A stretch of 55,529 nt of DNA from Herpetosiphonaceae bacterium (GTDB taxonomy: Bacteria; Chloroflexota; Chloroflexia; Chloroflexales; Kallotenuaceae): NCBI GenBank assembly GCA_036374795.1, contig DASUTC010000091.1, positions 1-55,529 of the forward strand, given 5' to 3'. The notes below the pieces were generated by a model, which was given only the letters and a program-made list of their open reading frames with translations, had not been told where the DNA came from and ran no database searches. Made by a program: the position numbers and the translations under genes. Of this stretch, positions 5,063-53,493 are shown piece after piece (the stretch's first letter is position 1; each line of letters starts with the position of its first letter).

Positions 5063-8000
5063 CTAAACGATCTGATGCTCCGTCGCATCCGCCTGCTCAA
5101 TCAGCCGACGCATGGCGTCAAGACAGCTCTTCGCCAGCCGCTCAACCGTTGACGCGCGATGAAGTGACGGGCAATAGCACCAGTCGAGGTGCAATTGCTT
5201 CCCCTGAATACTCCCGATCACCTCGAAGAGCCAGGGACGCTGGCATTGCGTGCTGCGCGTCGGGCCGTACGACTCGGGTGCCAGGCCGAAGGAGGACGAC
5301 ATGCTCATGCTCTGGTCGATCCGCCCTAAATAGTTTAAGACGATCTCGGCAGGCGGCAGCGCGCGCATCTGGCGCTTGATGGCATCGTCGCTGAGATTGA
5401 GCAGCCAGTCATAGCCCCAGCCATGATTGGGAATCGCGCGCCATTGGCGCTGAGTCGTCTCCAGCGCGGAGGCGGCAGTTGTAACGCCACGCAGATCAAG
5501 CACGAGCCGGGTCGCGGTTGCCAGCCAGCCGACGGTGCGCGACAGATCAATGCTGTCCAGCCCGATCTGCCGACCATGCCCCTGCACGCAGATCAGGTGC
5601 ACCGGATGCTCCGTCCAGTCTGCTAAGGCCAGTCCGATGCCTGTCAGCACCAGCTCGCGGATCTGAACATTGTAGCTCGCTGCCACCGTCTGCAACAGGG
5701 CTTGCGTCTCCTGGATGCTCAACGACGTACGCAGCGTCCGCGTCGCCCCCTCGATGTTTGCGCTCTGCCCTTCCGGGAAATCAACCGGCAGGCGTCGGAC
5801 CTCCGTCCAGGGCCGTCCCAGCCAGTAGGGCACCTGCTGCGTCAGCGCTGGCGAACGGACATAGTCTACCACGCGCTCGCTCCATGCTTTGAACGAGGCG
5901 GTCTGTGCCGGGAGCGCGATCGTCTCGCCGCGCCGCAACTGCTGGTAGGCGCGCTCAAGATCGTGAAGCAGGATTTGAAACGAGATCCCATCGGCGGCCA
6001 GATGGTGGACGATGATCAGCAAGCGCCCTGGCGCGGTAGAGCCGCACACAAAGGCGGCCACACGCAGAACAGGGCCGTGCTGAAGATCCAGGCTCCTTTG
6101 CAGCTCAGTCGCGGCTGCCGTAATCGCCTGTCCACGAGCTGCGTCCGCGACATCCGAGAGATCGACGACTGAAAACGGCAAATCGCCGGGAGGAGCAATG
6201 AAGGCGCGCCAGCCCTGCGGTGTGTTATGAAAGCGCAGCCGCAGCGCATCATGGTGGGCCATCACGTGCTGCACGGCGCGCCGCATGAGCGCGGGATCGA
6301 TCAGCTCGTTGACTGTGAAGCATGCGGCAACATTCCAGTGATGCGGCGAGTCGAAATTATTCTCAAGCCAGCCCCGCCGCGTCACAGGGATCTCCTCCGC
6401 CACGGCATGGACGCGCTGCTCGGCATCGATCGCTGTGGCTGCGGCTAGCACAGCCTGCTGCGCTGGAGCCGCATGCTGAAGATCGAGCAGCGCATCGTCC
6501 CCTGATCGAAACCCGTGGTCGTCGGTGCTACGCTGCTCCAGCGGCGACAGATGGCGTACGATGTCAGCGAGCACCTGGAGAAAGCTCTGGGCAACCTGCT
6601 CGATGATCGCAACACGCTCCATATACAATAAGCCACACTGGAGCTGTCCTTCGCCGATGTGGGCGCTCACATGCAGCACGCGAGGCACAATATTCTGCTT
6701 GCCGGTCCCTGCTCCGGGGAACGGCAAGAAGCTCCGAATCAACGACCGCTTAGAAAATCTGCGGTACCCCTCACCCGACATAATCCGACCGTGATACAAG
6801 AAAATAATCTCAGGCTGCGGGAGCGCGCGGAGCCGTGTGGAAATGTCCGGGTCCGTATTGAGGTGATGCAAGACATTATGATCAAAGCCCCTGTGAGGAT
6901 TGAGCCGTCCCTGCTCTTTGACCAGCCGCACGGCGTGTCCCAGATCACGAGCATCTCGCAGATCGAAGAGCCTGGGCGTATGCGTCGTGAACCAACCGAC
7001 CGTGCGCGATATATCGAGATCGTCGAAGATGGCCTCTCGTCCATAGTGTGTGACATCAACCAGCAGCACACGCACATCGGTCCACTGCATAAACGCCAGC
7101 GTCAGGGCAGCCAACAGCAGATCCTCGACCTGCAAATCGCCGCTCCGCGCTCCAGCAAGCAAGCGATCGGTTTCCGCACCACCGAGCGACACGCGCCTCT
7201 CAATCCAGCGCTCCGTCTCTACCGGCGGCAGCTCAGGGAGCAATCGGCTAACCTCGCTCCAGGGCAGCCCCAGCCAGTAGGCAGCCTCGTGTCTGAGCGC
7301 CTCGGAGTGCGCATACTCGGTCAGCCGCTCCGCCCACTGTTGCAAGGACGTTGTCTTGGCGGGCAGGCGAACCGGCATGCCCTGGCTCAGGTGCAGGTAG
7401 GCCGTCTGTAAATCTTCGAGCACGATTCGCTGCGAGTGAGCATCCGTGACGAGATGGTGAATCATGAGCAGCAGGCGCTGCGGCGTGACCGGTCCCAGGT
7501 CAAACAGGATCAGGCGGATCAGCGGCCCGTTCGACAGATCCAGCGACACCTCGATCTCAGAGATCGCAGCCTGAAAAGCGGCTTCTTGCTCTTCCTGGCG
7601 GATCGTCGAAAGGTCGATCGTCGAAAATGGCACGGCCTCGTCGACACCCGCGATGTACTGCCGCCAGCCCGACGCTGTTCGCTCGAAGCGCATGCGCAGC
7701 GCGTCGTGGTGGAGGAGCAGGTGTGAGAGCGCCTGCTCCAGCAGTGCGGCATCGACGGCAGACTCCAGCTCCAGCAGCGTCGGTATGAAGTAATGCTGAG
7801 GAACCTGAACCCGCCACCAGTCTTCAAAGAACCAGTGCTGGCGCGGCATAAGCGGCACTGGCCCGGTCACGATCCCCTGGGCTGCTCGCTGCATAAGCGC
7901 GGGATCGATCGGCTTGCCGCACGTGAATGAGGCGGCGGCATCCGACGGGCGTGGCGCATCGTCCGCAGGCTCAAGCCTGCCGCGCCGTGTGGCGGGAATC

Positions 8001-11000
8001 GCTTCTGGCATCGCGATCGAGTCGCCATCGGCGGCAAGGAGCCGATCGCGCGACCCATCGCTCAAAAGCGAGCGAATGATGTCGACAAAATAGCGCGCCA
8101 GCCGCTCGACCGTCGAGCGTCGGTGAAGATTGACGCTATAGGTCCAGCTCACATGGAGCTGCTGCTCAAAGATGTGTCCAACCACCTCAAAGAGCAGGTG
8201 CCGATGATTGTGCGGATCATGGGCCGGGCCGCTTGACTCCGGGGCCGGTCGGTATGGCTGATCCTCAACTCTGGCCTGGTCGATATTTCCCAGGTAGTTA
8301 AAGAGCGCCTCGGTAGGCGGCAGCGTGCGCATCGCGTCGAGAATCTCCGGGTCGTCGCTGACATAGCGCAGCACGTCGTAGCCGAAGCCACGGTTAGGAA
8401 TGCGGCCAAGCTGTTCTTTGATCGCGCGCACCATCTGCTCAGGCGTATCCGCAGGGCTGACGCTCAAGAGCGCCCGCGTGCCGTTCGCGATCCAGCCGAC
8501 GGTGCGCGAGAGATCGATGTCGTCGAAGATTGTCGATCGACCGTGGCCCAGCAGATCGACCACGACGCCAGGAACGCCCGACCAGCGGGTAATAGCTCCC
8601 ACCATGGCGGCGACTAGGACATCTCTGATCCGAGCATCGCAGCCGGGCAACAGCTCCTTGAGCAGGATATGCGTTTCTTCAGCCGTCAGCGACACAACCA
8701 CTGACTGAGTTGAGGCTTCCGTATTCGCCGACCGACCTTCGGGATAATCGACCGGCAGCGGCGTCGCTCGCTCCCACGGCAGCGCGAGCCAGTACTCCTC
8801 CAGCTCGCGTCGCAGCGCTGGCGACTGGGCATACGCAACCAGGCGCTCGGACCAGTGTTTGAACGATGTGGTCTTGGCTGGCAGCGCGATCGCCTCGTCC
8901 CTTAGGAGCTGATGGTAGGCGGTGTAGAAATCCTCCAGCACGATCTGCATTGAGATGCCGTCGCCGACCAAATGGTGCATGATGACCTGGAGGCGCTGCG
9001 GTCGGTCTGGTCCTAGCTCAAAGAGGGCCACCCGGATCATCGGCCCGTCGCACAGGTCCAGCGTCGTGTGCAGATGGGCAGCCGTCTCCTCAATCACGGC
9101 ATGGTGCTCCACCTCCGCTCGTGTCGAGAGGTCGATCACCGTGAGCGGCACGGCCTCATCCGGGGCCGCGATGTACGGCTGCCAGTAGGGCGCGGCGACC
9201 TTGAAGCGCAGGCGAAGCGCATCGTGGTGCAGCAGAAGCTGGCGGAGCACGCGCTGGACCAGCGCCGGATCGAGGCGTCGTGGCGGTATCAGCAGCACGG
9301 CGACGTTCCAATGCTGCGGATGAGCAAAGTTCTGCTCGAAGAACCACCGCTGGATAAAGGGCATCGGGCCGATCACCAGATCTTGCTCAACAGTGGTTGC
9401 GGAGGGGCAGGCCACGCGAGCCAGCTCGGCGATCGTCTGGTGCTCAAGCACCTGCCGGGCGGTTATGTGCAGCCCGGCCTGCGCGGCTTTGGCGACGACC
9501 TGAAACCCGATCAGCGAGTCGCCGCCGAGCGCAAAGAAGTTATCATGGATGCCGACCTGATCGATGCCCAGGAGCGCCTGCCACAGCTCGGCGATCGTGC
9601 GCTCGACGGCGCTGCGGGGCGCAGCATAGCCGGTGGCTAAGGCTGGCCGGGCGTAGCGCGACTCGAAGCTGCTCGGCTGCTGCCCGCCGCTGCTGCCGCG
9701 ACCCGACCGCCGACTGGCCTGCTTGATACGGCGCGGCAGGTCACGCACCGACACCGCGATCTGGGGCAGGCCGCCGCTCGCCAGCACGCGCTGCAAGGTT
9801 TCCATGCCTTCCTGGGGCCTGATACCAGCTTCAGCCAGGGGCGCGTCAGGATGATCTGCGTGGATCGATTCGTCGCCAAACTGCCATCCATCCCAGTTGA
9901 CGCTGATCCAGCGGGCCGGGCTGATCTGACGCTGCTGATGCACAAAGAGATCCATAAAGGCGTTTGCCGCAGCATACGCGGCGAATCCCAGGCCGCCCAG
10001 GATCGACGATAACGAGGACGTGACCAGGCAAAAATCGAGATCTCTTCCGCGCAGGACACGTTCGAGCGTGAGCAGCCCATACACTTTGGGCTGGAATTGC
10101 TCCTCACCGACGCGCCGATCGGTTTGCTCAATCAGGCGCATCGCCCGCTCTCCGACGATGCCAGCCGCATGGATCACGCCATGCAGCGCGCCGTACTGGG
10201 CTTCGATGCGCTCGATGATCGCCTGCATCTGCTCCTGATCGGCCACATCCGCGCCCAGGATCAGCACCTCCGCGCCCAGCGCTTTGAGACGCTGGACCTG
10301 CGGCGTTTGTTCGTGCGCGGCACCAGCAGAGCGGCTGACCAAAATCAGCTTCGCCTGCACGGTCTGAGCCAGATATTCGGCAAGCACCAGGCCGATTGCT
10401 CCGAGGCCGCCCGTGATCAGGTAGACGCCGTGTGGCCGGAGGATGCTCGGATGTGCTAAGTCGCTTCCCGGCTGGATTGGCTCATAGACCTGTACCCAGC
10501 GCTGCTGTCCGCGATACGCCACCACCGGGTACGTCGCAGGCTGCTGCATCTCTCCGATCAGCGCATCGAGCAGGCGCGCCTCCTGCCAGGTGTTCGGCTG
10601 CGGCAGCGCTATATCGATATGTCGACATGCGATGTCGGGGTACTCCTGCGGAATGATCTTACTCAGCCCAAGCGCTGTCGCCTTCTCGGCGGCCAGCGCC
10701 TCGGTGCCCGTCACGGGCTGGCTCTGGTTCGAGACAATCTCGATGCGCGCTGCCAGCTTGCGCGTGCCCAGCGCGCGCGCCAGAAACAGCAGGCTATAAA
10801 AGCCGCGCGCTTGCGCTCGTTTGAAGGATGGCGCGTCGAGCGGCTCGGCGTCGTCCGAGGATGTCAGGCTCCAGAGATGAACGGTCGAGGTTGGCGTGAG
10901 ATCGCGGGCGGCCAGGTGATCCAGCAGCGCCGCGTACTGCTCCGGCTCCGTCGGATCGAGCATGTACGTTCGCGCGCCGGTCTGCGCGAAGCGCTGCCCG

Positions 11001-13876
11001 CAGACCACGGTGATCGGATTGTGACCGAGCTGCTCAAGGCGCTGTACCAGCCGCGCCGCGACGCCAAGCTCATCCGCGAAGACGAGCCAGCAGGCCGGAT
11101 GATCGGCGTTGGATGCCTGCGCGAGGGTCGGCTGCGCCTGCTTCCACACCGGGATATACAGCCACTGATCTGGCGCAAGCCGCTGATCGGTGGCGACGGT
11201 CGGCGCGTCCTCGGCATCGGCTGGCGCTTCCAGCCAGTAGCGGCGGCGCTCGAACGGATAGGTCGGCAGTGCAACGAGCTGGCGACGCTCATGGGCATAG
11301 CCTGCGGCCCAGTCGATCGCCACGTCCGCCAGCCACAGGTGGCCGAGCGTCTGCATCAGCAGCACGCTATCGGGCTGCTGCTCATCTGCGTGCGGCAGCG
11401 ATGAGAAGATCGTGCAGGCCGCAGGAGCAGCCTGCCGAGCCAGGTTGCGCAGCGCGCGCCCAGGACCAACCTCCAGCAGCACCGGCTTCGGTCGTCGCAC
11501 GATCTCCTGCACGCCCGCGCCGAAGCGAACCGGAGCGCGCAGGTGCCGTGCCCAGTAGTCGGGATCTTGCGCCTCGTGCTCGGTGATCCAGGTGCCGGTC
11601 ACATTCGAGATAAACGGAATGCGCGGTACACTGCGCGGTATCTGCCGCACATACTCGGCAAAGACCGCGCAGATCGGCTCGACCATCGGGGAGTGGAAGG
11701 CATGGCTGGTTGACACGGGGCGGCACCGCACGCCGTGCTCCGTCAGTCGTTGGCGCAGCGCCTCGATCGCTGCTGTCTGGCCGGAGATGACGCACTGGGT
11801 CGGGCTATTGATCGCCGCCAGCGACAGGTGCTCGTTCAGTAGCGGCTGTACGGCATCTTCGTCCAGCGCGACCACCAGCATGGCTCCTGCGGGGAGCTGC
11901 TGCATCAGCCGTCCGCGTGTGGCAATCAGCGCGACGCTATCTTCCAGCGAGAAGACTCCGGCCAGACACGCCGCCACGTATTCGCCCAGGCTATGTCCGA
12001 GCATGGCTGCCGGTCGGACGCCCCAATCCAGCCAGAGCTGGGCCAGCGCATAGCTCACGACAAACAAGGCTGGCTGTGCGATGCGCGTCTGGCTTAGCAG
12101 GCTGGCCGCCTCCGCCCGCTGATCGTCTTGCGGATAGAGCACCGCGCGCAGATCCAGGCCGAGGTGCGGCTCGAACAGCCCGGCACAGCGATCGACGCAC
12201 GCTCGGAAGCGGGCCTCGGTGCGGTACAGATCGTGTCCCATCCCGACGTACTGCGATCCCTGCCCCGGAAAGAGCCAGATGACCTCAGGGCTGCCGTCGC
12301 CGTCGACCTGGGCCGTGTCCGCTCCCGCAGGCGGTGATTCCAAACCTGCGATTGCCTCCGCACGATCGCGGCAGACCACGATGCGGCGGTGGGCAAAGCT
12401 GCGCCGTCCAACCTGCAACGTGTAGGCCACATCGGCAAGATTCACGTAGGGCGTGGCCTTGAGCCACGTCCGCAGATTCGCGGTCGCCGCATCAAGCGCC
12501 GTCTCGGTTTTGGCCGAGAGCAGCAGGAGTTGCACGGGCCGCGACGGCCCCGACTCCTCGACCGGCGGCGCTTCTTCGAGGATGACGTGGGCATTCGTGC
12601 CGCCCATGCCAAACGAGCTGACTCCGGCGCGGCGCGGGTGATCGCCGCGGGTCCAGTCCGTCAACGCGGTGCTGACGCGAAACGGTGTTGCGGCAAAATC
12701 GATCTGTGGATTGGGCTGCTGAAAATGTAGGCTCGGCGGAAGCTGCCGGTGCTGGAGCATCAGCGCGGTTTTGATCAGTCCGGCCACGCCCGCGGCTGCG
12801 TCCAGGTGTCCGATATTGGTCTTGACCGATCCCAGGGCGCAGCGTGGGCCGGTGCCGCTGCGCGCTCCAAATGCCAGCGCGAGCGCCTTGACCTCGATCG
12901 GATCGCCGAGCGGCGTGCCCGTGCCGTGCGCCTCGACATAATCGATCGTATCGGGCGTGACATCCGCGAGCGCCAGCGCATCGCGGATCGCCTGCGCCTG
13001 CCCGTGTACGCTGGGCGCGGTAAACCCGACTTTCTGCCCACCGTCGTTGTTGATCGCCGAGCCACGGATCACGGCGTAGATCTGGTCGCGGCTCGTGATG
13101 GCGTCTGCCAGCCGCTTGAGCACCACGACGCCCACGCCGTTGCCGCCGACGGTTCCCTGTGCCTGGGCGTCGAAGGCCCGACAATGCCCGTCCGGTGAGA
13201 GAATGCTGCCATCCTGATAGTGATAGCCGGTCGTCTGTGGCACCTGGATCGCCACACCGCCCGCCAGCGCCAGGTCGCTCTCGCCGTTGAGCAGGCTCTG
13301 GCAGGCCAGATGCACCGCGACCAGCGAGGTCGAGCAGGCGGTTTGTACGGTCATGCTTGGGCCGGTCAGGTGCAGCTTATACGAAACCAGGGTCGACAGA
13401 AAATCTCGATCGTTGCTCAGCGTCGCTTGAATATTAGCAAACGCGGCGTGGCGCTGGGGATGAGCCAGCAGATGGTGCAGCAGGTAGCTGTTGAGCTTCT
13501 CGCCGGCATAGACCGCGATCCGGGTGGCGGCAGGCGCGGCGGAGTAGCCCGATCGCTCAAGCGCTTCCCAGGCGCACTCCAGAAAGAGGCGATGCTGCGG
13601 ATCGGTCAGCTCAGCCTCGCGCGGCGGCATGTCGAAGAAGGCGGCATCGAAGCGGTCGATGTCCGAGAGGAGGCCGCCAGCCGGGACGAAGCTGGGATCG
13701 ACGCGCTGCGCTGGCGAAACGCCCGCCGCATCCAGCTCGGCCTCGGAGAAGCGCGCGATCGACTCGACGCCGCCGCTCAGGTTCTGCCAGAACTGCTCCA
13801 GCGTGGACGCGCCGGGAAACCGGCCAGCCATGCCAATAATCGCAACACCGTAGTCGAAGAGATCGGGCTTATTCAT
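5063..13876 (-). CDS. Terminal PKS module with three tandem epimerization-family domains: KS-AT-KR-ACP-E*-E*-E*
   Basis: A protein of about 2937 residues. KS (~10-430) has TACSTS near 177, EAHGTGTPLGDP and KTNIGH. AT (~530-840) has GHSLGEY (~628) and HAFH (~725), typical of malonyl-CoA selection. KR (~930-1370) has GGLGAIG (~1153) and YAAAN. ACP has LGGDSL (~1452). Three condensation-superfamily domains of epimerase subtype follow: E1 ~1495-1940 (HHLVGDG), E2 ~2000-2430 (HHLVTDA), E3 ~2490-2930 (HHLAADG), each with an E-type SRTVGW motif. The catalytic Glu of the epimerase EGHGRE motif is Leu, Thr and Gln respectively, so canonical epimerization is unlikely. There is no thioesterase or reductase. 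The ATG at 13876 overlaps the preceding stop by 8 bases and has GAGGAG about nine bases upstream; an in-frame extension to 13978 lies inside the previous gene. It adds the last C2 unit as a beta-hydroxy thioester. Confidence 0.9.
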   Translation of the reverse strand: MNKPDLFDYGVAIIGMAGRFPGASTLEQFWQNLSGGVESIARFSEAELDAAGVSPAQRVDPSFVPAGGLLSDIDRFDAAFFDMPPREAELTDPQHRLFLECAWEALERSGYSAAPAATRIAVYAGEKLNSYLLHHLLAHPQRHAAFANIQATLSNDRDFLSTLVSYKLHLTGPSMTVQTACSTSLVAVHLACQSLLNGESDLALAGGVAIQVPQTTGYHYQDGSILSPDGHCRAFDAQAQGTVGGNGVGVVVLKRLADAITSRDQIYAVIRGSAINNDGGQKVGFTAPSVHGQAQAIRDALALADVTPDTIDYVEAHGTGTPLGDPIEVKALALAFGARSGTGPRCALGSVKTNIGHLDAAAGVAGLIKTALMLQHRQLPPSLHFQQPNPQIDFAATPFRVSTALTDWTRGDHPRRAGVSSFGMGGTNAHVILEEAPPVEESGPSRPVQLLLLSAKTETALDAATANLRTWLKATPYVNLADVAYTLQVGRRSFAHRRIVVCRDRAEAIAGLESPPAGADTAQVDGDGSPEVIWLFPGQGSQYVGMGHDLYRTEARFRACVDRCAGLFEPHLGLDLRAVLYPQDDQRAEAASLLSQTRIAQPALFVVSYALAQLWLDWGVRPAAMLGHSLGEYVAACLAGVFSLEDSVALIATRGRLMQQLPAGAMLVVALDEDAVQPLLNEHLSLAAINSPTQCVISGQTAAIEALRQRLTEHGVRCRPVSTSHAFHSPMVEPICAVFAEYVRQIPRSVPRIPFISNVTGTWITEHEAQDPDYWARHLRAPVRFGAGVQEIVRRPKPVLLEVGPGRALRNLARQAAPAACTIFSSLPHADEQQPDSVLLMQTLGHLWLADVAIDWAAGYAHERRQLVALPTYPFERRRYWLEAPADAEDAPTVATDQRLAPDQWLYIPVWKQAQPTLAQASNADHPACWLVFADELGVAARLVQRLEQLGHNPITVVCGQRFAQTGARTYMLDPTEPEQYAALLDHLAARDLTPTSTVHLWSLTSSDDAEPLDAPSFKRAQARGFYSLLFLARALGTRKLAARIEIVSNQSQPVTGTEALAAEKATALGLSKIIPQEYPDIACRHIDIALPQPNTWQEARLLDALIGEMQQPATYPVVAYRGQQRWVQVYEPIQPGSDLAHPSILRPHGVYLITGGLGAIGLVLAEYLAQTVQAKLILVSRSAGAAHEQTPQVQRLKALGAEVLILGADVADQEQMQAIIERIEAQYGALHGVIHAAGIVGERAMRLIEQTDRRVGEEQFQPKVYGLLTLERVLRGRDLDFCLVTSSLSSILGGLGFAAYAAANAFMDLFVHQQRQISPARWISVNWDGWQFGDESIHADHPDAPLAEAGIRPQEGMETLQRVLASGGLPQIAVSVRDLPRRIKQASRRSGRGSSGGQQPSSFESRYARPALATGYAAPRSAVERTIAELWQALLGIDQVGIHDNFFALGGDSLIGFQVVAKAAQAGLHITARQVLEHQTIAELARVACPSATTVEQDLVIGPMPFIQRWFFEQNFAHPQHWNVAVLLIPPRRLDPALVQRVLRQLLLHHDALRLRFKVAAPYWQPYIAAPDEAVPLTVIDLSTRAEVEHHAVIEETAAHLHTTLDLCDGPMIRVALFELGPDRPQRLQVIMHHLVGDGISMQIVLEDFYTAYHQLLRDEAIALPAKTTSFKHWSERLVAYAQSPALRRELEEYWLALPWERATPLPVDYPEGRSANTEASTQSVVVSLTAEETHILLKELLPGCDARIRDVLVAAMVGAITRWSGVPGVVVDLLGHGRSTIFDDIDLSRTVGWIANGTRALLSVSPADTPEQMVRAIKEQLGRIPNRGFGYDVLRYVSDDPEILDAMRTLPPTEALFNYLGNIDQARVEDQPYRPAPESSGPAHDPHNHRHLLFEVVGHIFEQQLHVSWTYSVNLHRRSTVERLARYFVDIIRSLLSDGSRDRLLAADGDSIAMPEAIPATRRGRLEPADDAPRPSDAAASFTCGKPIDPALMQRAAQGIVTGPVPLMPRQHWFFEDWWRVQVPQHYFIPTLLELESAVDAALLEQALSHLLLHHDALRMRFERTASGWRQYIAGVDEAVPFSTIDLSTIRQEEQEAAFQAAISEIEVSLDLSNGPLIRLILFDLGPVTPQRLLLMIHHLVTDAHSQRIVLEDLQTAYLHLSQGMPVRLPAKTTSLQQWAERLTEYAHSEALRHEAAYWLGLPWSEVSRLLPELPPVETERWIERRVSLGGAETDRLLAGARSGDLQVEDLLLAALTLAFMQWTDVRVLLVDVTHYGREAIFDDLDISRTVGWFTTHTPRLFDLRDARDLGHAVRLVKEQGRLNPHRGFDHNVLHHLNTDPDISTRLRALPQPEIIFLYHGRIMSGEGYRRFSKRSLIRSFLPFPGAGTGKQNIVPRVLHVSAHIGEGQLQCGLLYMERVAIIEQVAQSFLQVLADIVRHLSPLEQRSTDDHGFRSGDDALLDLQHAAPAQQAVLAAATAIDAEQRVHAVAEEIPVTRRGWLENNFDSPHHWNVAACFTVNELIDPALMRRAVQHVMAHHDALRLRFHNTPQGWRAFIAPPGDLPFSVVDLSDVADAARGQAITAAATELQRSLDLQHGPVLRVAAFVCGSTAPGRLLIIVHHLAADGISFQILLHDLERAYQQLRRGETIALPAQTASFKAWSERVVDYVRSPALTQQVPYWLGRPWTEVRRLPVDFPEGQSANIEGATRTLRTSLSIQETQALLQTVAASYNVQIRELVLTGIGLALADWTEHPVHLICVQGHGRQIGLDSIDLSRTVGWLATATRLVLDLRGVTTAASALETTQRQWRAIPNHGWGYDWLLNLSDDAIKRQMRALPPAEIVLNYLGRIDQSMSMSSSFGLAPESYGPTRSTQCQRPWLFEVIGSIQGKQLHLDWCYCPSLHRASTVERLAKSCLDAMRRLIEQADATEHQIV
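7866..8030 (-). repeat. Partial duplicate of an E-domain N-terminus in the E1-E2 linker (matches about 6276-6410)
   Basis: The linker between E1 and E2 encodes IPATRRGRLEP...IDPALMQRA. It matches the start of E3, IPVTRRGWLEN...IDPALMRRA, both in protein and in DNA (shared run gcgcgggatcgatc). A second, unrelated-looking E-domain start (PLMPRQHWFFEDWW) follows it. The linker therefore looks like the broken N-terminal end of one E copy left behind by unequal recombination. Confidence 0.6.
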
Positions 13877-16800
13877 GCTTGGACGGCTCCTCATTCCGCG
13901 CTGCCTGGATGCGCTGTCGCTGAAGCTGCTGTCGCTGGCGGGCGGAGCGGATCGACTCGGCGCGCGTGGCGGAGTCACCCGACGGCGCAGCGCTATCCTG
14001 GGGCGGCCTCAGGGACTCGGCAAACGATCGGATCGTTGGATGCTGAAACACGTCGATCATCGACACGGGCTGCGGCAGGGCCGCTTGCAGCCTGCGGTGC
14101 AGATGAACCGCCAGCAGCGATGTGCCGCCCACATCGAAGAAGTTGTCGTCGATGCCCAGCCGCTCAAGCTGAAGCACCTCCTGCCAGATCGCCAGGATCG
14201 TCCGCTCCGTCTCCGTCTGCGGCGCGATGTACGCCGTATCAAGGCGCGGGCGGCTCGTGGTCGGCGCGGGCAGCGCGTGCCGATCGACCTTGCCGCTGGG
14301 CGTCAGGGGCAGCGCCGCAAGCTCGACGATCGTCGAGGGCAGCATGTACTCCGGCAGCTCGGCGCGCATGAGCTGGCGCAGCCGATCCACGGCAAGCTGC
14401 TGCTCCGGCACGAGCACGACATAGGCGACCAGACGCTGCTCGGCGGGCGGATCGTGACGCGCCACGACCACCACCTGCTGAACGGCGGGATGCTGGCTGA
14501 TGACCGTCTCGATCTCCTGCGGCTCGACGCGGAAGCCGCGCAGCTTGACCTGCTGATCGATCCGGCCTAGAAACTCCAGCGTGCCGTCAGCGCGATACCG
14601 ACCCAGGTCGCCCGTCTTGTACAGCCGCGTGCCGGCTGCGCCGAACGGGTTGGGGATGAAGCGCTCGGCGGTCAAGGCGGGCTGGTTGAGGTAGCCACGC
14701 GCCAGACCAATCCCGCCGAGACAGATCTCGCCCGGAGTCCCAAGCGCCACGGGATTGGCGAGGCGGTCGAGCAGGTACACCTGCACGTTGTCGATCGGAC
14801 GGCCAAGCACGGCTCTGCGCGGCGGCGGATCGTAGCGCGCGATCGTGGCGCAGACGGTGCCCTCGGTTGGACCATAGGCATTCAGGAGATGACGGCCAGC
14901 CGACCAGCGCGCGGCCAGATCGGTCGGGCAGACCTCGCCCGCGACGATCAGCGTCTTGAGCGCGGGCAGCGGCTCGTGCGGCAGCAGGGCCAGCACCGAG
15001 GGCGGCAGCGTCGCCGTCGTAATCGCCTGGTCGCGCAAGAGCTGCGCGAGCGCCGGGCCGGGAATCCGACTGTGCGACGGCATCAGCGTGAGCGTCGCGC
15101 CCGCCAGGAGCGCCATGCAGATCTCGGACACTGCCGCGTCGAAGCTGAGCGACGCAAACTGAAGCACGCGGCTGCTCGGCTCGACCCCGAACGCTTGAAT
15201 CTGGGCGGCGGCCAGATTGAAGAGGCCGCGATGCGTCACTTGCACGCCCTTGGGCCTGCCGGTCGAGCCGGAGGTGTAGATCACGTAGGCCAGGTTGTCC
15301 ATCGTTACGGCGCATGGCGGATTCGACGGGCTGTGCTGCGCCAGCGCCGTCTGCGCTCGATCCAGGCAGATGATCCGTGGCCCCTGATCCGGCAGCATCG
15401 CGGCGTGCTGCGTATGAGTCAGGATCAGCGGCAGGCGTGTATCCGCGATCATATGTGCCAGGCGCTGAGCGGGGTAGGTCGGGTCCAGCGGCACGAACGC
15501 GCCGCCAGCTTTGAGCACTGCCAGCACCGCGACGAGCATATCCAGCGACGACTCAAGACAGATGCCAACCAGCGTCTCCGGCCCGATCCCCATCTGGCGC
15601 AGCTCGTGCGCTAGGCGGTTGGCGCGCTGGTTGAGCGTCTGATACGTCAGGCGCTCATCGGCAAACGTCGCGGCAATCGCCTGCGGCTGTCGATCGGCGA
15701 TGGCCTCGAAGACGGACTGGATCACGGTGGTAGCGCGGCCAGCGACATCCGTCGCGTTCCAATCGTACACAAGCTGCCGGTACTCGGCATCGCTCAGGCA
15801 GGCGTAGTCCATGATCGGACGATCGGGATCGCGGAGCACGGAGCGCAGCAGCAGCTCAAGATGCGCGACCATCCCCGCAACGGTGGCCGGATCGAAGAGG
15901 TCCGTATTGTACTCAAGCTCGCCTTGCAGCGCCGTGGCCGTGCGCTCAAGCGACAGGGTTAGATCGAATTTGGCGGGCGAGGTGTCGATCTGCATCGTCC
16001 GCAAGGTCAGATCCGCAACCCGGAGCGTGACGTTCGGAGCATTCTTGATCACCAGCGCGGCCTGAAAGAGCGGGTTGCGGCTCAGATCGCGGGTGGGCTG
16101 GAGCTCCTCAACCAGCCGCTCGAAGGGTAGATCCTGATGGGCATAGGCCTGGAGGCAGACCTCGCGGACGCGACGCAGCAGCGCGCGGAACGTCGGATTG
16201 CCTGACAGGTCGGTGCGCAGCACGAGCATGTTGACGAAGAAGCCGATCAGCGGCTCGAACTCGGCGCGCGTGCGATTCGCGATAGCCGTGCCGACGACAA
16301 TGTCGTCCTGGCGGGTGTAGCGGTGGAGCAGCGTTTGAAACGCCGCGAGGACGACCATAAAGAGCGTCGCGGTTTCCTGCTGTGCCAGCGCGTCGATCGG
16401 GTCGGCGATCGACGCATCGAGCACGACGGGATGCCGCGCGCCGGAGAATGTCTGAATCGCCGGACGCGGACGGTCGGTGGGCAATGCCAGCGTCGGCAGG
16501 GGCGGGCGAAGCTGCTGCCGCCAGTAGTCGAGGTGCTGCTCCAGCACGGCTCCCTGCATGGAGCGCCGCTGCCAGATCGCAAAGTCGGCGTATTGCAGCG
16601 GCAGCGGGGTACTCACCTGGCCCAGCGGCGCGGCCTTCCCGGCGCGCCGTGCCTCGTAGAGCGTTACCAGCTCACGCATGAACACGCCAATCGACCAGCC
16701 ATCGGAGATGATGTGGTGCATCGTCAGCAGCAGCTTATGGTCGTCTGCGGCGAGGCGCAGCAGCACGACACGCAGCAGCGGCCCCTGGGCCAGATCGAAC

Positions 16801-17258
16801 GGGCGCTGCGCTTCCGCGACCGCGTGGCGTCGCACCTGCTCGTCGCGCTGCTCCGCCGGGAAGAGCTGCATATCGATCACCGGCACGTCGATGCTCAGCG
16901 CGGGGCTGATGATCTGCACCGGACGGTTCTCAACAACCGTGAAGGTCGTCCGCAGCGCCTCGTGACGACGGATCACCTCGTCGAGACTCAGGCGAAAGAT
17001 CGTCACGTCGAGCGGGCCTTCGAGATGCGCCGCGACCGGCAGATTGTAGAAGGCCGTCTGCGGCACGAGCTGGTCGAGAAACCACAGGCGGCGCTGCGCA
17101 AACGACAGCTCAATCCCGTTTGGGTCGCGCTCCTGCGGCCCGACGAGCGGTTGCCGGGCGGGCCGCAGGGCCATCAATTGTTGAAACAGCCGCCCGTGCT
17201 CTTCGGGCGACAGATCTGCAATCTGTTTGGAACGATCTGTCATAACCCTGTGACTCAT
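13869..17258 (-). CDS. NRPS module C-A-PCP, predicted aromatic residue (Tyr/Phe-like)
   Basis: A protein of 1129 residues. The C domain (~45-470) is LCL-like, with FAQRRLWFLDQL and HHIISDG (~182). The A domain (~500-985) has YTSGSTGRPKG (~667) and A10 PSGKVDR. Aligning its pocket to GrsA by eye gives D-A-S-T-I-A-A-V-C-K, that is the GrsA phenylalanine code with Trp239 changed to Ser, which enlarges the pocket and fits Tyr or another para-substituted aromatic. The PCP has the slightly unusual VGGTSL (~1044) instead of LGGHSL. GGGGAGG lies two bases before ATG 17258, rather close; a second ATG is five codons in. It lies 28 bases after the preceding NRPS gene and overlaps the next by 8. A short Gln/Arg-rich C-terminal tail may dock to the KS of the terminal protein. 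Confidence 0.9.
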   Translation of the reverse strand: MSHRVMTDRSKQIADLSPEEHGRLFQQLMALRPARQPLVGPQERDPNGIELSFAQRRLWFLDQLVPQTAFYNLPVAAHLEGPLDVTIFRLSLDEVIRRHEALRTTFTVVENRPVQIISPALSIDVPVIDMQLFPAEQRDEQVRRHAVAEAQRPFDLAQGPLLRVVLLRLAADDHKLLLTMHHIISDGWSIGVFMRELVTLYEARRAGKAAPLGQVSTPLPLQYADFAIWQRRSMQGAVLEQHLDYWRQQLRPPLPTLALPTDRPRPAIQTFSGARHPVVLDASIADPIDALAQQETATLFMVVLAAFQTLLHRYTRQDDIVVGTAIANRTRAEFEPLIGFFVNMLVLRTDLSGNPTFRALLRRVREVCLQAYAHQDLPFERLVEELQPTRDLSRNPLFQAALVIKNAPNVTLRVADLTLRTMQIDTSPAKFDLTLSLERTATALQGELEYNTDLFDPATVAGMVAHLELLLRSVLRDPDRPIMDYACLSDAEYRQLVYDWNATDVAGRATTVIQSVFEAIADRQPQAIAATFADERLTYQTLNQRANRLAHELRQMGIGPETLVGICLESSLDMLVAVLAVLKAGGAFVPLDPTYPAQRLAHMIADTRLPLILTHTQHAAMLPDQGPRIICLDRAQTALAQHSPSNPPCAVTMDNLAYVIYTSGSTGRPKGVQVTHRGLFNLAAAQIQAFGVEPSSRVLQFASLSFDAAVSEICMALLAGATLTLMPSHSRIPGPALAQLLRDQAITTATLPPSVLALLPHEPLPALKTLIVAGEVCPTDLAARWSAGRHLLNAYGPTEGTVCATIARYDPPPRRAVLGRPIDNVQVYLLDRLANPVALGTPGEICLGGIGLARGYLNQPALTAERFIPNPFGAAGTRLYKTGDLGRYRADGTLEFLGRIDQQVKLRGFRVEPQEIETVISQHPAVQQVVVVARHDPPAEQRLVAYVVLVPEQQLAVDRLRQLMRAELPEYMLPSTIVELAALPLTPSGKVDRHALPAPTTSRPRLDTAYIAPQTETERTILAIWQEVLQLERLGIDDNFFDVGGTSLLAVHLHRRLQAALPQPVSMIDVFQHPTIRSFAESLRPPQDSAAPSGDSATRAESIRSARQRQQLQRQRIQAARNEEPSKHE

Positions 17259-17286: not shown

Positions 17287-20200
17287 TTACGGATGATCGA
17301 TCGTCAGACGGGCGGCAGTTTCAGGATCGGCCTGCTCCAGCATGTGCTGCACGACCATCACCGAAAACTCGGCGATGGTCGGAGCCTCGAATAAGCCCCG
17401 CAGCGGCAGCGACACCTGAAATTGCTCAAGCACCCGCGCGTTGATCTGTGTCGTCAGCAGCGAGTGACCGCCCAGCGCAAAGAAATTGTCGTGGATGCCG
17501 ATGCGCTCGACGCCCAGCACCTCTTCCCAGATCGCGGCGACCGCCTGCTCAAGCTCATTGCGTGGCCCGACATACGTCTGTGCCCGATCGCTCAAGGCCA
17601 GATGCGGCACCGGCAGTGCCTGTCGGTCGACTTTTCCGCTGGCGGTCAGGGGGAAGGCGTTGAGCGGCACCACGATCGACGGGATCATATAGTCGGGCAG
17701 CTTGCCGCCCACAAAGCGCTGAAGCTCCTCCACGACGATGCTCTGGTGCGGCTGCGGGATAACATACGCAGTTAAACGCTGGTCGGGGTGCCTGCCCGCG
17801 GGCGCTGCGTCGTCGCGCACCATGACGACGGCATCCTGCACCGCTGGATGCTGCCGCAGCACCGCCTCGATCTGCCCCAGCTCGATCCGAAAGCCGCGCA
17901 GCTTGACCTGATGATCGACCCGCCCCAGGTACTCGATCGTGCCATCGGGCTGGTAGCGCGCCAGATCTCCGGTGCGGTAGAGCCGTGATCCAGGGGCGGC
18001 GCTGAACGGATCGGGGATGAAGCGCTCAGCCGTGAGATCCGCGCGCCGCACATAGCCGCGCGCCAGGCTGACGCCGCCGATGTACAGCTCACCGGCAATG
18101 CCGATCGGCACCGGCTGAAGCGCGCGATCCAGAATATACGCCCGGACGTTCCAGATAGGCCGTCCGATCGGGACAAGCGCCTGATCGGTCTGGCGCTGGC
18201 ACTGCCAGACGATGACCTGGATCGTCGTCTCGGTCGGGCCGTACAGATTGTACAGATCCGCCGGAAGGCGGTCGAAGCAGCGCTGTTGCAGGTCGAGCGC
18301 CAGCGCCTCGCCGCCGCAGAAGACCCGCTTGAGACTGGTGCAGGAGCGGATCAGCGGCTCTTCCAGCAGCAGGTGCAGCATCGCCGGGACGAGCTGCAGG
18401 ATCGTGATCCGGCGCTCGATGACCGTCCTGACCAGATAGGTGCTATCCTGCTGCTTGCCCGGCTCGGCCACGACCAGGCACGCTCCGGCAAGCAGCGGCG
18501 CGTAAAACTCCCAGACGGATGCGTCGAAGCTGCACACGGTCTTCTGCAACACGCGATCATCGGTCGTCAGCGGCAGCTCGGCCTGCATCCAGAGCATGTG
18601 GTTGCACAGCCCGCGATGCGTGATCATCACGCCTTTTGGCACGCCCGTGGAGCCGGAGGTGTAGAGCACATAGGCCAGGTGGTCGGGCGCTCCGGCATGC
18701 TGCGGCGGCGTCGCCTGCTCCCGCGCGATCGTCGTCCAGTCGGCATCGATACGCACAACACGACCGTCGAAGGCCGGGAGTCGCTCGGCGAGGTGCTGCT
18801 GCGTGAGCAGCACGCTGATCGCGGCATTGTCGATCACGAAGGCCAGATACTCCGAGGGATGCGACGGCTCAAGCGGCACGTACGCGCCACCGGCTTTGAG
18901 CGTGCCCAGCAGCGCAATCACCAGATCCAGCGAGCGCTCGACATGGATGCCGACCAGGACATCGGGGCCGACGCCCTGCCGCATCAGGTGGTGCGCGAGC
19001 TGATTAGCGCGGGCATTCAACTCGGCATAGGTCAGGCGCTGGTCGCCATACTCGACGGCGACCGCGTCTGGAGTGCGCGCGGCCTGCGCCTCGAACAGAT
19101 CATGCAGCAGCAAATCAGGCTCCACGTCGACCGTCGTGCGGTTGAAGTCGGAGAGCAGCCGCTGGCGCTCGCTCGCGCCGAGCAGCGCCAGCCGGTCGAT
19201 CAGGAGCTGCGGCGCGTGCAGCGCATGATGCAGGAGCGTCTGGTACTGCTCGGCGAGGACCGCGAGATGCTCCTGATTCAAGAGCCGGGCATCGTAGTGG
19301 AAGTCGCAGACGATCGTATCGGCCTCGCGGCGACAGGCCAGCTTGATCTTGAATTGATGGGTACAGGCTGCGTAGCGCTCCAGGGAGCACGTCACGTCCG
19401 CACCGGACTCACACAGCGCGGCGTCGTCGAACGAGAAGCAGACCGGGAAGAAGGGCGGCTGCTCGCCGTCAGCGGCGTCCGGCAGCACGGTATCCCAGGT
19501 AAAATACTCCTGCCACTCGTTGTGCTCATGCCAGATCCGCCCGACCTCATCCAGCGCCTGTTGAAAGGTCGTGCTCGCGTCTCGCTCAAAGGAAAGCGGC
19601 AGGTCCCTGGCAAACAGCCCGATCGCCTGCTCAAGCTCCTCATACTTGCGCCCGTCGCTGGCGATGCCCAGCGTAAGCCGCGATTGTGGAATATGCCGTC
19701 CCAGCAGCACGATCCAGGCTGTCAGCAGCAGCATCGACGTATCGGCTGGATGCGCGTCAAGCTGCGCGGCGAGCGACTGATCCAGCGTGGAGTGATAGAC
19801 CTGGAGATCGAAGCCGCCCGCCGCGCCCTGCCGACGCTCGAACGCCAGACGCATGCCCGGCAGCGCCTCAAGGTGGGAGCGCTCGCGCCAGAATTGCTTG
19901 CCAACCTCGGCATCGGCGACCTCAAGCAATTCGTTTTGCCACTCGGCAATATCGGCGTACTGGAGCGGCTCGTCGTCGAGCGCGCCGCCCTCGACCGATG
20001 CCGCGTACGAGCGCACGATCTCAGCGACCAGATGGCGGAGCGATGCCAGATCAGCGCACAGCGCCGGGAGGCTGATCACCAGGCAGTGCTTGACGGGCGA
20101 GCATATCACCAGCGTACAGCGCGTCACGGGACCCTGCGCCAGATCGAATGGTCGTTGCAGCAGCTCATCAAAGACCTGCCAGATCTGCCGCGCCTGCGCT

Positions 20201-20487
20201 TCGGGCACGTGCTGCTGGATGTCGATCGCCTCCCAGGTCAGCAGATCCTCGCCAATCACCTGAAGCGGGATCGTCATCCCCGCCAGCGCGCGAAAGGTTG
20301 TCCGCAGGATCTCGAAGCGCTGAACCACGCTGTCGCAGGACTGGCGGAGGCGCGCCCGATCGAGCGGCCCGTCGATCTGTACCGCACACTGGGACCGAAA
20401 GGGCACAGCACGCCCGGCTTGCTGCAACAGCCAGACCTGTTTCTGCTGCGGCGAAACCCGTACACCTGCAATCGAATCAAGGGTCAT
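17287..20487 (-). CDS. NRPS module with degenerate C domain: C*-A-PCP, predicted Gln-like residue
   Basis: A protein of 1066 residues. The N-terminal domain (~10-430) has the condensation fold pattern (QQKQVWLLQQ, FDLAQGPV, LQYADIAEWQ) but the HHxxxDG motif is replaced by LPALCAD (~142), so the catalytic His is absent. The A domain (~460-945) is complete (YTSGSTGVPKG ~612, YGPTETT, ASGKVDR); its pocket by eye is D-A-W-Q-F-G-L-I-Q-K, close to the Gln code DAWQFGLIDK that I recall, with Gln instead of Asp at 331. The PCP has LGGHSL (~1007). The preceding NRPS protein ends in an intact extra C domain that could make the bond this module cannot. The dioxygenase and carbamoyltransferase genes lie immediately upstream, so the degenerate domain may instead be a docking platform. 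AAGGAG lies 11 bases before the ATG. Confidence 0.88.
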   Translation of the reverse strand: MTLDSIAGVRVSPQQKQVWLLQQAGRAVPFRSQCAVQIDGPLDRARLRQSCDSVVQRFEILRTTFRALAGMTIPLQVIGEDLLTWEAIDIQQHVPEAQARQIWQVFDELLQRPFDLAQGPVTRCTLVICSPVKHCLVISLPALCADLASLRHLVAEIVRSYAASVEGGALDDEPLQYADIAEWQNELLEVADAEVGKQFWRERSHLEALPGMRLAFERRQGAAGGFDLQVYHSTLDQSLAAQLDAHPADTSMLLLTAWIVLLGRHIPQSRLTLGIASDGRKYEELEQAIGLFARDLPLSFERDASTTFQQALDEVGRIWHEHNEWQEYFTWDTVLPDAADGEQPPFFPVCFSFDDAALCESGADVTCSLERYAACTHQFKIKLACRREADTIVCDFHYDARLLNQEHLAVLAEQYQTLLHHALHAPQLLIDRLALLGASERQRLLSDFNRTTVDVEPDLLLHDLFEAQAARTPDAVAVEYGDQRLTYAELNARANQLAHHLMRQGVGPDVLVGIHVERSLDLVIALLGTLKAGGAYVPLEPSHPSEYLAFVIDNAAISVLLTQQHLAERLPAFDGRVVRIDADWTTIAREQATPPQHAGAPDHLAYVLYTSGSTGVPKGVMITHRGLCNHMLWMQAELPLTTDDRVLQKTVCSFDASVWEFYAPLLAGACLVVAEPGKQQDSTYLVRTVIERRITILQLVPAMLHLLLEEPLIRSCTSLKRVFCGGEALALDLQQRCFDRLPADLYNLYGPTETTIQVIVWQCQRQTDQALVPIGRPIWNVRAYILDRALQPVPIGIAGELYIGGVSLARGYVRRADLTAERFIPDPFSAAPGSRLYRTGDLARYQPDGTIEYLGRVDHQVKLRGFRIELGQIEAVLRQHPAVQDAVVMVRDDAAPAGRHPDQRLTAYVIPQPHQSIVVEELQRFVGGKLPDYMIPSIVVPLNAFPLTASGKVDRQALPVPHLALSDRAQTYVGPRNELEQAVAAIWEEVLGVERIGIHDNFFALGGHSLLTTQINARVLEQFQVSLPLRGLFEAPTIAEFSVMVVQHMLEQADPETAARLTIDHP

Positions 20488-20564: not shown

Positions 20565-22742
20565 CTAGATCAGCGAAATATCGATCTCTTCTTGCCAGGC
20601 GTTGAGCCAGCGCCGGAGCTGCTGCCCGTCGTCTTTCGGTGGAACGTTCGAGCGATGCCAGACCAGGAAGGCCTGTTTGTCGGCACCGACCAGGAAGAGC
20701 GCGTGCATGCCTTTCGAGCGCTTCAGCGTTTGTAGCGCCTGCGCGGGCGTCTGCACGATCGGGCTGCCGACGTTGAGCGACGTGTTGACCGATACCTCGA
20801 CGCCGACGCGCCGCCCCATCGCTTTGAGATAGGCGTAGGCCAGCGGATCGATCTCAGGGCGGACGATCTGCACGCGCGCGGTGCCGTCCTTGTGGACCAC
20901 CGCCGGGATCAGATGCGCGCTTTCTGGTCGCGCCCGCACGGTCAGGACCATGTAGTTGTAGGCGTTGTAGTTATCGCAGGCGGCACCCGGCGATAGCTCA
21001 AACAGGTGATGAGCCGCCTGATAGGTTGCCATCGGCGCCAGCGGTCGCACGGCCTCGCGGAATTTGACGAGCTGATTCAAGATGGTGCGGATCTCCGCGT
21101 TGCAGGGATTGGCAAGGATCGAGCGATGCCCCAGCGCGCGCGGACCCGTCTCGGCCACGCCCTGGAACAGCCCGATCACGCCATTCTTGGAGACGATGTA
21201 GGCCATCAGATCGGCGATCACGCCGCGCCGTCCCACATCCGAGAGATTGCCCAGCCGAAGACAGCCGAGATCGCCGACGCTCTCTAGCGCCTGCTCGATC
21301 GCCGCGCTCGACGCCGGAATGCCGCAGTAGAAGGCATGGCGCAGCGGCTCGCCCGGAGGCGCGCCATTCGCCATCGCAACATGATAGGCCGCGCCCATCG
21401 GCGTCCCCGCATCGCCCGGCGTGGGCGGCACCCACAGATGCAGCCGCGTATTGTTGCATCCCAGGTAGCGCTCGTAGTAGTGCTCGTCGAAGTGCTCAAG
21501 CAGCTTCATGTTGGCAAGGCAGTTGAGCGCGGTGCCGCCGGTCAGCACCAGCTTATTGCTGCCGGTTGTGCGGATCAGATGGCCCACGATATGAAAGAGC
21601 ACATCCTCGAAGAGCATCTGTGTCGCGGCGGCCTTATCCACCCGATCGCGCGTAATCTCGGCATGCTGCACGTCCTCGACATTCAGGATCGCGTCGGGAT
21701 TCCACATATCTTTGCGGGCGATCGGCTCTCCCAGGATCTCCTTGAGCATCGGCGTGTACGGGCGATGCACGCTGCGATGCCAGTTTGCCAGCGCCCGGTT
21801 GAGATAGATCTGCCCGTTATTGCCGAAATAGACCAGTTGCCGGAGCTGGCGATAGTAGGGATTGGTCAGGCGATCGTTGTTGCCCCAGGCTGCCGCGCCC
21901 ATGTAGCGCCCTTCGCTGCTCAGCTCCGTCCAGCCGCCCTGTGTCGAGCTGATACACGAGTAGAGCAGGCCGAGCGAGTCGAACATGCTCCGGTTGTCGT
22001 ACAGCAGCTTGACGCGCCCGTGCTGGGCCATGTACAGCGAGATCGCGTTATCATCGCCAGCGCCGTCGATCACCGTGATGATCACCGGCTCCGCGCTGCG
22101 GGCAAATGGCGAGGCCGCAAGGGAAAAGTACGCATGGTTATCGTGGTGGCGCGCGCCGATGATCGGAAACGGCTTGCTCATGCCGAACTGCTCGCCCAGC
22201 GCCCTGGGACCGCTGAAGAACTTGAGAAAGCGCTGCGTAATCAGATCGCCGTCGCTGTCCTCCTGGGTCAGCAGCAGCGGCAGGCTGGCCGGTCCTTCTT
22301 CCAGAATCGCGCGTGGCGAGCAGCAGCGCACAATATCGAAGGTCGCGATACAGGCATGAATATCAGCAGGACCGATCCCAAGCTGCGCCATCTGCTCGCG
22401 CAGGACCTCGATCGATTGCTCAGGATACTTGGTGTAGTGCTTGACGCCGACAAAGCGCTCTTCCTCGTTGTTGGTAATCAGCCTGACGCCATCTTTGAGC
22501 GAAGCCGAGACGAGGCCAACGCCGCTGTTATGGGTGCAGGACGTAATACCGAGCAGATAGACCTCCGCGCCGCGCTCCAATTGCTGGCGCAGCGTCGCCA
22601 TGCGCTCCTGGGCATATCCGCTGGTCGGTAGATAAAACTGGTGGCGCTCGCCATACCGTTTCATGATCGGAAGCATGATCGCGTCGGCAAGATCGCCAAG
22701 CCACGGTCGCGCTGCCCCATAAACCCCAAACTTGCGTGCCAT
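20565..22742 (-). CDS. O-carbamoyltransferase, NodU/CmcH family
   Basis: About 725 residues, the usual two-part layout: an N-terminal Kae1-like domain with conserved HHDNHAYFS (~200) and GGTALN, and a C-terminal YrdC-like part with ETGPRALGHRSIL and NTSLNV. The family makes carbamoyl adenylate from carbamoyl phosphate and ATP, then carbamoylates a hydroxyl (as in nodulation factor, cephamycin and novobiocin pathways). The acceptor here is probably a hydroxyl made by the neighbouring dioxygenase or the P450, or a beta-hydroxyl from a KR domain. The start is set at ATG 22742, with GGAAGG seven bases upstream; an in-frame GTG at 22763 would overlap the previous stop as GTGA. No sign of truncation or missing motifs. 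Confidence 0.9.
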   Translation of the reverse strand: MARKFGVYGAARPWLGDLADAIMLPIMKRYGERHQFYLPTSGYAQERMATLRQQLERGAEVYLLGITSCTHNSGVGLVSASLKDGVRLITNNEEERFVGVKHYTKYPEQSIEVLREQMAQLGIGPADIHACIATFDIVRCCSPRAILEEGPASLPLLLTQEDSDGDLITQRFLKFFSGPRALGEQFGMSKPFPIIGARHHDNHAYFSLAASPFARSAEPVIITVIDGAGDDNAISLYMAQHGRVKLLYDNRSMFDSLGLLYSCISSTQGGWTELSSEGRYMGAAAWGNNDRLTNPYYRQLRQLVYFGNNGQIYLNRALANWHRSVHRPYTPMLKEILGEPIARKDMWNPDAILNVEDVQHAEITRDRVDKAAATQMLFEDVLFHIVGHLIRTTGSNKLVLTGGTALNCLANMKLLEHFDEHYYERYLGCNNTRLHLWVPPTPGDAGTPMGAAYHVAMANGAPPGEPLRHAFYCGIPASSAAIEQALESVGDLGCLRLGNLSDVGRRGVIADLMAYIVSKNGVIGLFQGVAETGPRALGHRSILANPCNAEIRTILNQLVKFREAVRPLAPMATYQAAHHLFELSPGAACDNYNAYNYMVLTVRARPESAHLIPAVVHKDGTARVQIVRPEIDPLAYAYLKAMGRRVGVEVSVNTSLNVGSPIVQTPAQALQTLKRSKGMHALFLVGADKQAFLVWHRSNVPPKDDGQQLRRWLNAWQEEIDISLI

Positions 22743-22759
22743 TCGCTGCCTTCCACCCC

Positions 22760-28461: not shown

Positions 28462-28483
28462 ATGTGTCACGTCCAAGATCCCC

Positions 28484-29701: not shown

Positions 29702-29783
29702 GGGTATCCTCGCAATCGCTGGCTGGTACTGGTTGAACGGCTGCGTGCTCCCGACCGGCGTAGCGTCCTCCGTCCGAGGCGCG

Positions 29784-53400: not shown

Positions 53401-53489
53401 CCGCCGATAAGTATCGTCGAAGACCTGCTGCCAGCTCGTCACCTGCTCAGCCGTTAGCGTTTCGAGTTCTGAATTTTGAGTTGAGGCCC

Positions 53490-53493
<4 letters not shown>
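50413..53493 (-). CDS. NRPS fragment NMT-A(C-terminal part)-PCP-C*, second half of a split module
   Basis: 1026 residues from GTG 53493, which overlaps the stop of the upstream NRPS ORF as GTGA. It begins with an N-methyltransferase (EIGCGTGLLLF, ~95) very like the one inside the C-A-NMT-PCP-E protein of the main operon, then the C-terminal A subdomain (LPEHMVPS, NGKLDR), PCP with LGGDSI (~510), and a C domain opening DVYPLGPLQ. This C domain reads NYMCLDG where HHxxxDG is expected, so both His residues, including the catalytic one, are missing. No A domain follows. By itself the ORF cannot activate an amino acid; it must pair with the upstream ORF. It is the last gene of the upstream transcription unit and converges with the DinB gene. 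Confidence 0.85.

Follow-up and report, generated by a model that had tools for sequence, protein, structure and literature searches.

The stretch of DNA analysed here, called the window in the following, is the whole 55,529-nucleotide contig C91 (DASUTC010000091.1, GC 65%) of a Herpetosiphonaceae bacterium, whose 7.75 Mb genome is rich in nonribosomal peptide synthetases (NRPS) and gives 112 condensation-family matches. On its minus strand lies one biosynthetic gene cluster (BGC), a hybrid line of FAAL, NRPS and polyketide synthase (PKS) proteins, and this line closes with a protein made of ketosynthase (KS), acyltransferase (AT), ketoreductase (KR) and carrier (T) domains followed by three epimerization (E) domains, E1, E2 and E3, the trio studied in this work. 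The open reading frame (ORF) of this terminal protein encodes 2971 amino acids with zero internal stops, and the ATG at 13876 (MNKPDLFDYGVAIIG) is its likelier start because the listed GTG start would lie 110 bp inside the upstream gene. Pfam orders the protein as KS, AT, KR, PP-binding and three times PF00668, and the E-associated model TIGR01720 also matches it three times, with E1 above the curated cut-off and E3 and E2 below it. Its features are as follows.

5063..13978, minus strand, likely start ATG 13876: terminal protein KS-AT-KR-T-E1-E2-E3 (ORF, translation, Pfam)
12719..13846, minus strand: ketosynthase, active-site TACS present (PF00109/PF02801)
11447..12277, minus strand: acyltransferase with the HAFH motif, malonate-type (PF00698)
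9884..10429, minus strand: ketoreductase core (PF08659)
9401..9646, minus strand: carrier with LGGDSL, of the type that precedes E domains (PF00550, D/H statistics, match to the PvdL PCP-E)
8024..9400, minus strand: E1, with HHLVGDG and LGHGRS (Glu to Leu, codon 8549-8551; Pfam, TIGR01720, alignment)
7868..8005, minus strand: linker scar between E1 and E2, whose 46 residues align with the N-terminal end of E3 (alignment)
6524..7861, minus strand: E2, with HHLVTDA, THYGRE (Glu to Thr, 7049-7051; His to Tyr) and FLYHG (Pfam, alignment, model)
5066..6403, minus strand: E3, with HHLAADG and QGHGRQ (Glu to Gln, 5582-5584), ending without a TPSDF docking tail (Pfam, alignment, model)

A sequence-only reading of this DNA had claimed three E-family domains in a row, with HHLVGDG, HHLVTDA and HHLAADG and an SRTVGW-type motif in each, all deprived of the catalytic glutamate of EGHGRE, and both parts hold: Pfam, TIGR01720 and the motifs agree on the three domains, SRTVGW and HHxxxD with its second His are kept in E1, E2 and E3, and the alignment places Leu, Thr and Gln, respectively, where the Glu should be. 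E2 has additionally changed the His of EGHGRE to Tyr and the Asn of FNYLG to Leu. When aligned to 89 canonical E rows, none of the three has an acidic residue in the Glu column, so that no replacement Glu stands there, and the canonical E domain of the same cluster (29784-35750) reads EGHGRED, as had been said.

Decay through a frameshift was considered and rejected, given that neither a frameshift nor a stop occurs across the 4.3 kb of E domains. The GC of the three codon positions in E1, E2 and E3 (0.66-0.70, 0.41-0.47 and 0.73-0.75) is like that of the cluster's canonical E (0.72, 0.46 and 0.79), and therefore the region is coding. The copies are just 34-44% identical to each other, which rules out an assembly duplication as the source of the trio, and since their frame is nevertheless intact, a long retention of the trio is indicated. 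In the linker between E1 and E2, 46 residues align without gaps to the first 46 of E3 with a score of 107, against a maximum of 40 in 5000 shuffles and of 58 for the next best E start; this scar looks like the opening part of one more E domain, truncated where E2 begins. Such a scar, together with the 22 of 57 conserved columns lost in E3, the different Glu replacement of each copy and the lack of any other tandem array in our sample, would suit a reading in which the trio consists of relics, copies of an idle T-E unit which recombination has multiplied and scarred and which are tolerated without function. We consider this rather unlikely, in view of 4.3 kb without a stop and with a normal codon bias despite the low identity among the copies, of an E3 which is still modelled at a pLDDT of 91, and of the purifying selection found on PKS-linked relatives.

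By their AlphaFold2 models (pLDDT 83 for E2 and 91 for E3), E2 and E3 are predicted to be well-formed E domains, with solved E domains matching the E2 model at Z 34-40 and the E3 model at Z 37-44, and other condensation-family structures reaching at most Z 30.6 and 32.0, respectively; this ranking speaks of fold and not of function, and rows within Z 1 count as ties. In the tree, the trio falls inside the E clade, with E1 and E3 as sisters (bootstrap/SH-aLRT 100/98), and E2 in a weak grouping (93/62) with two others, the residue-depleted E that ends the line on C153, another contig of the genome, and one E from another genome of the phylum; E1, E3, E2 and the two partners of E2 are held together at 86/83, and the monophyly of E1-E3 is not rejected (p 0.236). 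The expectation that the three would stand apart from active epimerases linked to a peptidyl carrier protein (PCP) was thus borne out in part, failing in that they lie within the E clade and holding in that E1 and E3 are sisters and that E2 groups, if weakly, with a depleted domain and not with active PCP-linked E domains.

The substrate was the next point of the sequence-only reading, which held that a beta-hydroxyacyl chain on a PKS acyl carrier protein is no normal substrate for an E domain. HAFH is the malonate signature of AT domains, and the AT of the terminal protein carries it, so that the alpha carbon offered to the trio behind this KR-bearing module is predicted from sequence to derive from malonate and not to belong to an alpha-chiral aminoacyl or peptidyl substrate. 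No alpha-epimerization is expected from the trio because a malonate-type AT gives a CH2 alpha carbon, which is no stereocentre. That reading needs a correction as to the carrier before E1, which has the LGGDS signature of E-preceding carriers: the D occurs in 84 of 85 carriers preceding an E domain, and an H stands in 46 of 55 preceding a condensation (C) domain. By this signature the terminal protein's carrier is assigned to the type that precedes E domains. With a KR present, the substrate should bear a beta-hydroxyl, and it could be asked whether the retained His acts as a base that dehydrates or epimerizes the beta-hydroxyacyl chain; AmbE-CmodAA, a dehydrating C domain, is in fact at or near the top among the non-E structures (Z 30.6 and 31.7). 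We hold such beta-carbon chemistry to be very unlikely, given that no acid is seen in place of the lost Glu, that two other PKS-E modules of this genome (on contigs C33 and C122) already hold a dehydratase (DH) domain, and that the structural ranking reflects fold only, with Z differences within 1 being ties.

It was in the search for similar proteins where the trio found its context. Eleven PKS-linked E domains were found, namely the trio, the KS-AT-KR-DH-T-E modules on C33 and C122, each ending in one E, and six cyanobacterial domains in KS-AT-KR-T-E proteins recovered with a KR-T-E query from Nostoc sp. NIES-3756 (WP_067777007.1), Nostoc sp. UHCC 0926 and four loci in two further genomes. 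The trio belongs to this class, having KS-AT-KR-(DH)-T-E in one protein with an altered EGHGRE, a motif whose Glu or His is changed in all eleven.

EGHGRE site in the source genome: window LGHGRS, THYGRE and QGHGRQ; C33 QGRGRD; C122 HADGRD
EGHGRE site in the cyanobacterial PKS-E: EGNGRD, EGNGRE, EENGRE, RGNCRK, EGNGRD and EGNSRE

Both residues are thus intact in 0/11 PKS-linked E domains vs. 90/101 NRPS-linked ones (18/28 in the source genome and 72/73 elsewhere), a contrast with a Fisher p of 1.3e-9, in which independence is overstated as the rows are related. The six cyanobacterial domains all have the His of EGHGRE changed to Asn, five of them also the Asn of FNYLG to Leu, and they retain 45-54 of the 57 conserved E columns; the malonate HAFH is found in the AT of five of their six proteins as well as in the window protein. 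These domains are under purifying selection, with a dN/dS of 0.12-0.24 in the E part, similar to that of the KR of the same proteins; dS is saturated in most pairs, and values of 0.19 and 0.24 come from the two pairs with the least saturation. The protein that follows a single PKS-E opens in 8/8 cases with a C domain of the DCL type, the kind normally accepting from an E, at margins of +156 to +203 bits in a classifier that was correct in 116 of 122 cross-validated cases. The single PKS-E proteins also have E-type carriers (LGGDS) and end in a TPSDF-type docking tail, which in one reads IPSDF. By these features, the class would have retained the carrier, the E, the tail and the C partner as one interface, and adaptor, not epimerase, would be its best-supported function; the motif change may most simply be taken for the loss of an epimerase function where none was possible. 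The PKS-linked domains form three groups in the tree: those of the window, those of C33 and C122 with the E domains of methyltransferase (MT) modules (98/97), and the cyanobacterial ones (99/94). As a separate observation, the window and the Nostoc PKS-E clusters resemble each other in the order of a TauD, a C-A-T-C protein and, shortly after them, a module opened by a divergent C domain; the product families may be related.

Within this class, the trio stands apart. Among the 39 TIGR01720 matches of the source genome, only E1-E3 stand in tandem, and a profile of the E-E junction (A2) scores the two junctions of the window at 497 and 447 bits, their own rows being part of the profile, and elsewhere at most at 338 in 60 genomes of the same order, 310 in 386 cyanobacterial and 303 in 398 Pseudomonadota genomes, all read as E-C or single E. 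A query with the full trio found no tandem E in 400 genomes from its phylum, 72,556 plasmid records and an exact-peptide-seed scan of genome contigs. In about 1,200 sampled genomes, with the best 2-5 candidates per genome scored in the large sets and with Actinomycetota, Myxococcota and most Bacillota outside the sample, there is no second tandem E-E junction, and the tandem E array is unique within the sample. Nothing on tandem epimerization domains was found in the literature, subscription papers being mostly outside that search. The trio is the extreme case among E-derived domains beside polyketide modules that seem to have become structural adaptors, and this wider class is new here.

What could such an array do at the end of a line? 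No thioesterase (TE; PF00975) is present in the window, though the genome has many elsewhere, many other of its lines having one, and tail-less terminal E domains without a TE also end lines on C153 (where an MFS transporter follows), C135, C319, C316 and C241. This suggests that one or more of the three domains, with the His kept and the Glu gone, might release the chain by hydrolysis or as an ester or amide with a nucleophile, in replacement of a TE. The double His is kept in E1, E2 and E3, and the terminal E of C153 and C135 also has an altered Glu; on the other hand, the Glu is intact in 3/5 of the other line-terminal E domains and C153 has lost the second His, so that the needed residues are not common to the terminal class, the models are closer to E domains (Z 34-44) than to acyl-transferring C domains (at most 32), and an unlinked TE acting in trans is simpler. 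Release stays a serious rival because all three copies keep HHxxxD, improbable as we judge it. A recruiting or holding platform is favoured because the terminal E domains do not share catalytic residues.

Lines of the SurE type likewise end in an E without a TE and are released in trans by a beta-lactamase-fold enzyme of the penicillin-binding protein (PBP) type, and a PF00144 domain with SITK lies here at 3-704, 2.9 kb downstream. It is, however, part of a fusion with a membrane acyltransferase, a peptidase gene in opposite orientation lies between, and SurE requires a D-residue made by a working E. This candidate, hardly credible to us, was rejected since PF00144 has no match on the contigs of the five other E-terminal lines.

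Other line ends of the genome deserve mention on their own account. Proteins of the form ...MT-T-E-C recur as the last members of lines, in most cases following a KS-AT-T protein, at loci L136, L138, L139, L141 and L142 (C242, C250, C189, C332 and C241). Where the E is complete, in four of them, the second His of HHxxxDG and the EGHGRE residues are changed; their final C domain is 42-45% identical to the terminal C at window 50413-53493 and is possibly a terminal C class for release. In the C-A-x-T-E modules of L128 and L131 (C181 and C238), which are sisters, the E reads HALxxDG and RGHGRE, both catalytic residues being lost; in C181 the x stands for a methyltransferase of the FkbM type. At L137:5424-7994, a PF04738 lantibiotic-dehydratase-like gene adjoins an E-terminal NRPS line without a TE, which may be compared with the PEARL-type enzymes (PMC11212132).

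Taken together, we give about an even chance to the explanation that the trio consists of stacked pseudo-epimerase domains working as a carrier-binding or recruiting platform instead of a stereochemical catalyst. An NRPS T-E unit would first have become attached to the end of a KS-AT-KR module, an arrangement also met in other lines of this genome and in cyanobacteria; the carrier type, the DCL partners and the sequence suggest this. The motifs of the PKS-linked E are altered, and with a malonate alpha carbon without a stereocentre the epimerase function would have fallen idle. The domain may then have survived as an adaptor without epimerizing activity, by which the polyketide-loaded carrier is presented or docked to the next partner, a C domain of the DCL type, in line with the selection and the partner type seen in the relatives. 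In the window, the E domain is multiplied; the beginning of one more copy survives as a remnant, and there is no docking tail. At this TE-less line end, the stack could finally, and this is the weakest step, serve as a platform for release or tailoring enzymes acting in trans, much as the X domain of glycopeptide lines serves P450s. Several points weigh against this platform. HHxxxD is kept in 3/3 copies and is not needed by a pure scaffold; E3 retains 35 of 57 conserved columns, and part of the array may be drifting; the trio has no TPSDF tail and no C domain or TE after it, so that the adaptor role of its relatives is not transferable as such. One origin for all PKS-linked E domains is not rejected by the AU test (p 0.124), nor is it demonstrated; for the trio, neither a close relative suited to a selection test nor a recruited partner was found. 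The window yielded no unpaired DCL C domain, the sole protein-opening one found there (23818-28476) following the canonical E. From the list of functions guessed at in the sequence-only reading, scaffolding fits best; new catalysis, as release, esterification, oligomerization or dehydration, is unsupported, the motif loss being general in 11/11, and we regard it as quite unlikely that the trio jointly catalyses a new terminal reaction on the beta-hydroxyacyl chain, be it release, esterification or stepwise oligomerization.

The remainder of the assembly line reads as follows.

43771..49194, minus strand: FAAL-ACP-C-A-T, likely start of the line (domain search)
35769..43778, minus strand: KS-AT-KR-T-C-A-T (domain search)
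29784..35750, minus strand: NRPS C-A-MT-T-E with the canonical E (EGHGRED) and a TPSDF tail (domain search, motif alignment)
28484..29818, minus strand: cytochrome P450 (domain search)
23818..28476, minus strand: NRPS C(DCL)-A-T-C (domain search, C-type classifier)
22760..23821, minus strand: TauD-family dioxygenase (domain search)
20565..22763, minus strand: NodU-type carbamoyltransferase (Pfam)
17287..20487, minus strand: NRPS C-A-T with a divergent C domain without HHxxxDG (Pfam, motif check)
13869..17258, minus strand: NRPS C-A-T with an LCL-type C, immediately upstream of the terminal protein (Pfam, C-type classifier)

The divergent C domain at 17287-20487, like those of loci L145 and L183, opens its module shortly after the TauD and C-A-T-C proteins. 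Beyond the terminal protein follow an M50B peptidase gene in opposite orientation and the contig end, which cuts a membrane acyltransferase (PF01757) fused to the beta-lactamase-fold domain with SITK (3-2156). Towards the other end, a C-A-MT-T-C protein is divided within its A domain between two ORFs that overlap by 4 bases (53490-53493), either by an assembly frameshift or as a split gene, and it may be the last part of an adjoining BGC that the contig edge truncates.

It is easy to annotate PKS-linked E domains as epimerases or to overlook them, and with 0/11 intact motifs they should not be taken for instructions on stereochemistry. That they pair with a DCL-type C suggests that the whole T-E/C interface moves as a unit in PKS/NRPS recombination, which is useful for engineering hybrid lines, and the trio offers a testable case for the role of an E array ending a TE-less line. 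If the trio did catalyse termination, E domains, like C domains, would have been converted to chain-terminating enzymes.

With the E domains of NRPS such as TycA-E (2xhg), GrsA PCP-E (5isx) and PvdL-E (9lcp), the trio shares the fold, TIGR01720, HHxxxD, SRTVGW and the E-type carrier upstream, but it lacks the catalytic Glu, a PKS module replaces the A domain, the domains are three in tandem, and no partner C or tail follows. In the E domain after the second module of LgrA, the corresponding residue is glycine. This E domain, which has been described as inactive (PMC8150014), is a precedent and resembles the trio in being retained without epimerizing, although it is single and NRPS-linked. Like the fungal terminal CT, the trio is a C-superfamily element ending a TE-less line; CT, however, is of the C-domain type and cyclizes, whereas the trio is of the E type by TIGR01720, tree and structure, and so is no CT. 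The X domain of glycopeptide lines, which recruits P450s, is likewise a C-superfamily domain near the line end without a condensation or epimerase role, but its motif is different, of the HRxxxDD type, and it precedes a TE, whereas the trio keeps HHxxxD with no TE in the window, and recruitment by it is only putative. The PKS-E of Nostoc and relatives (such as WP_067777007.1, annotated only as a type I PKS) differ from the trio in being single, in their TPSDF tail, in the following DCL C and in their characteristic exchanges of His for Asn and of Asn for Leu, and they share with it the order KS-AT-KR-T-E, the malonate AT and the altered EGHGRE.

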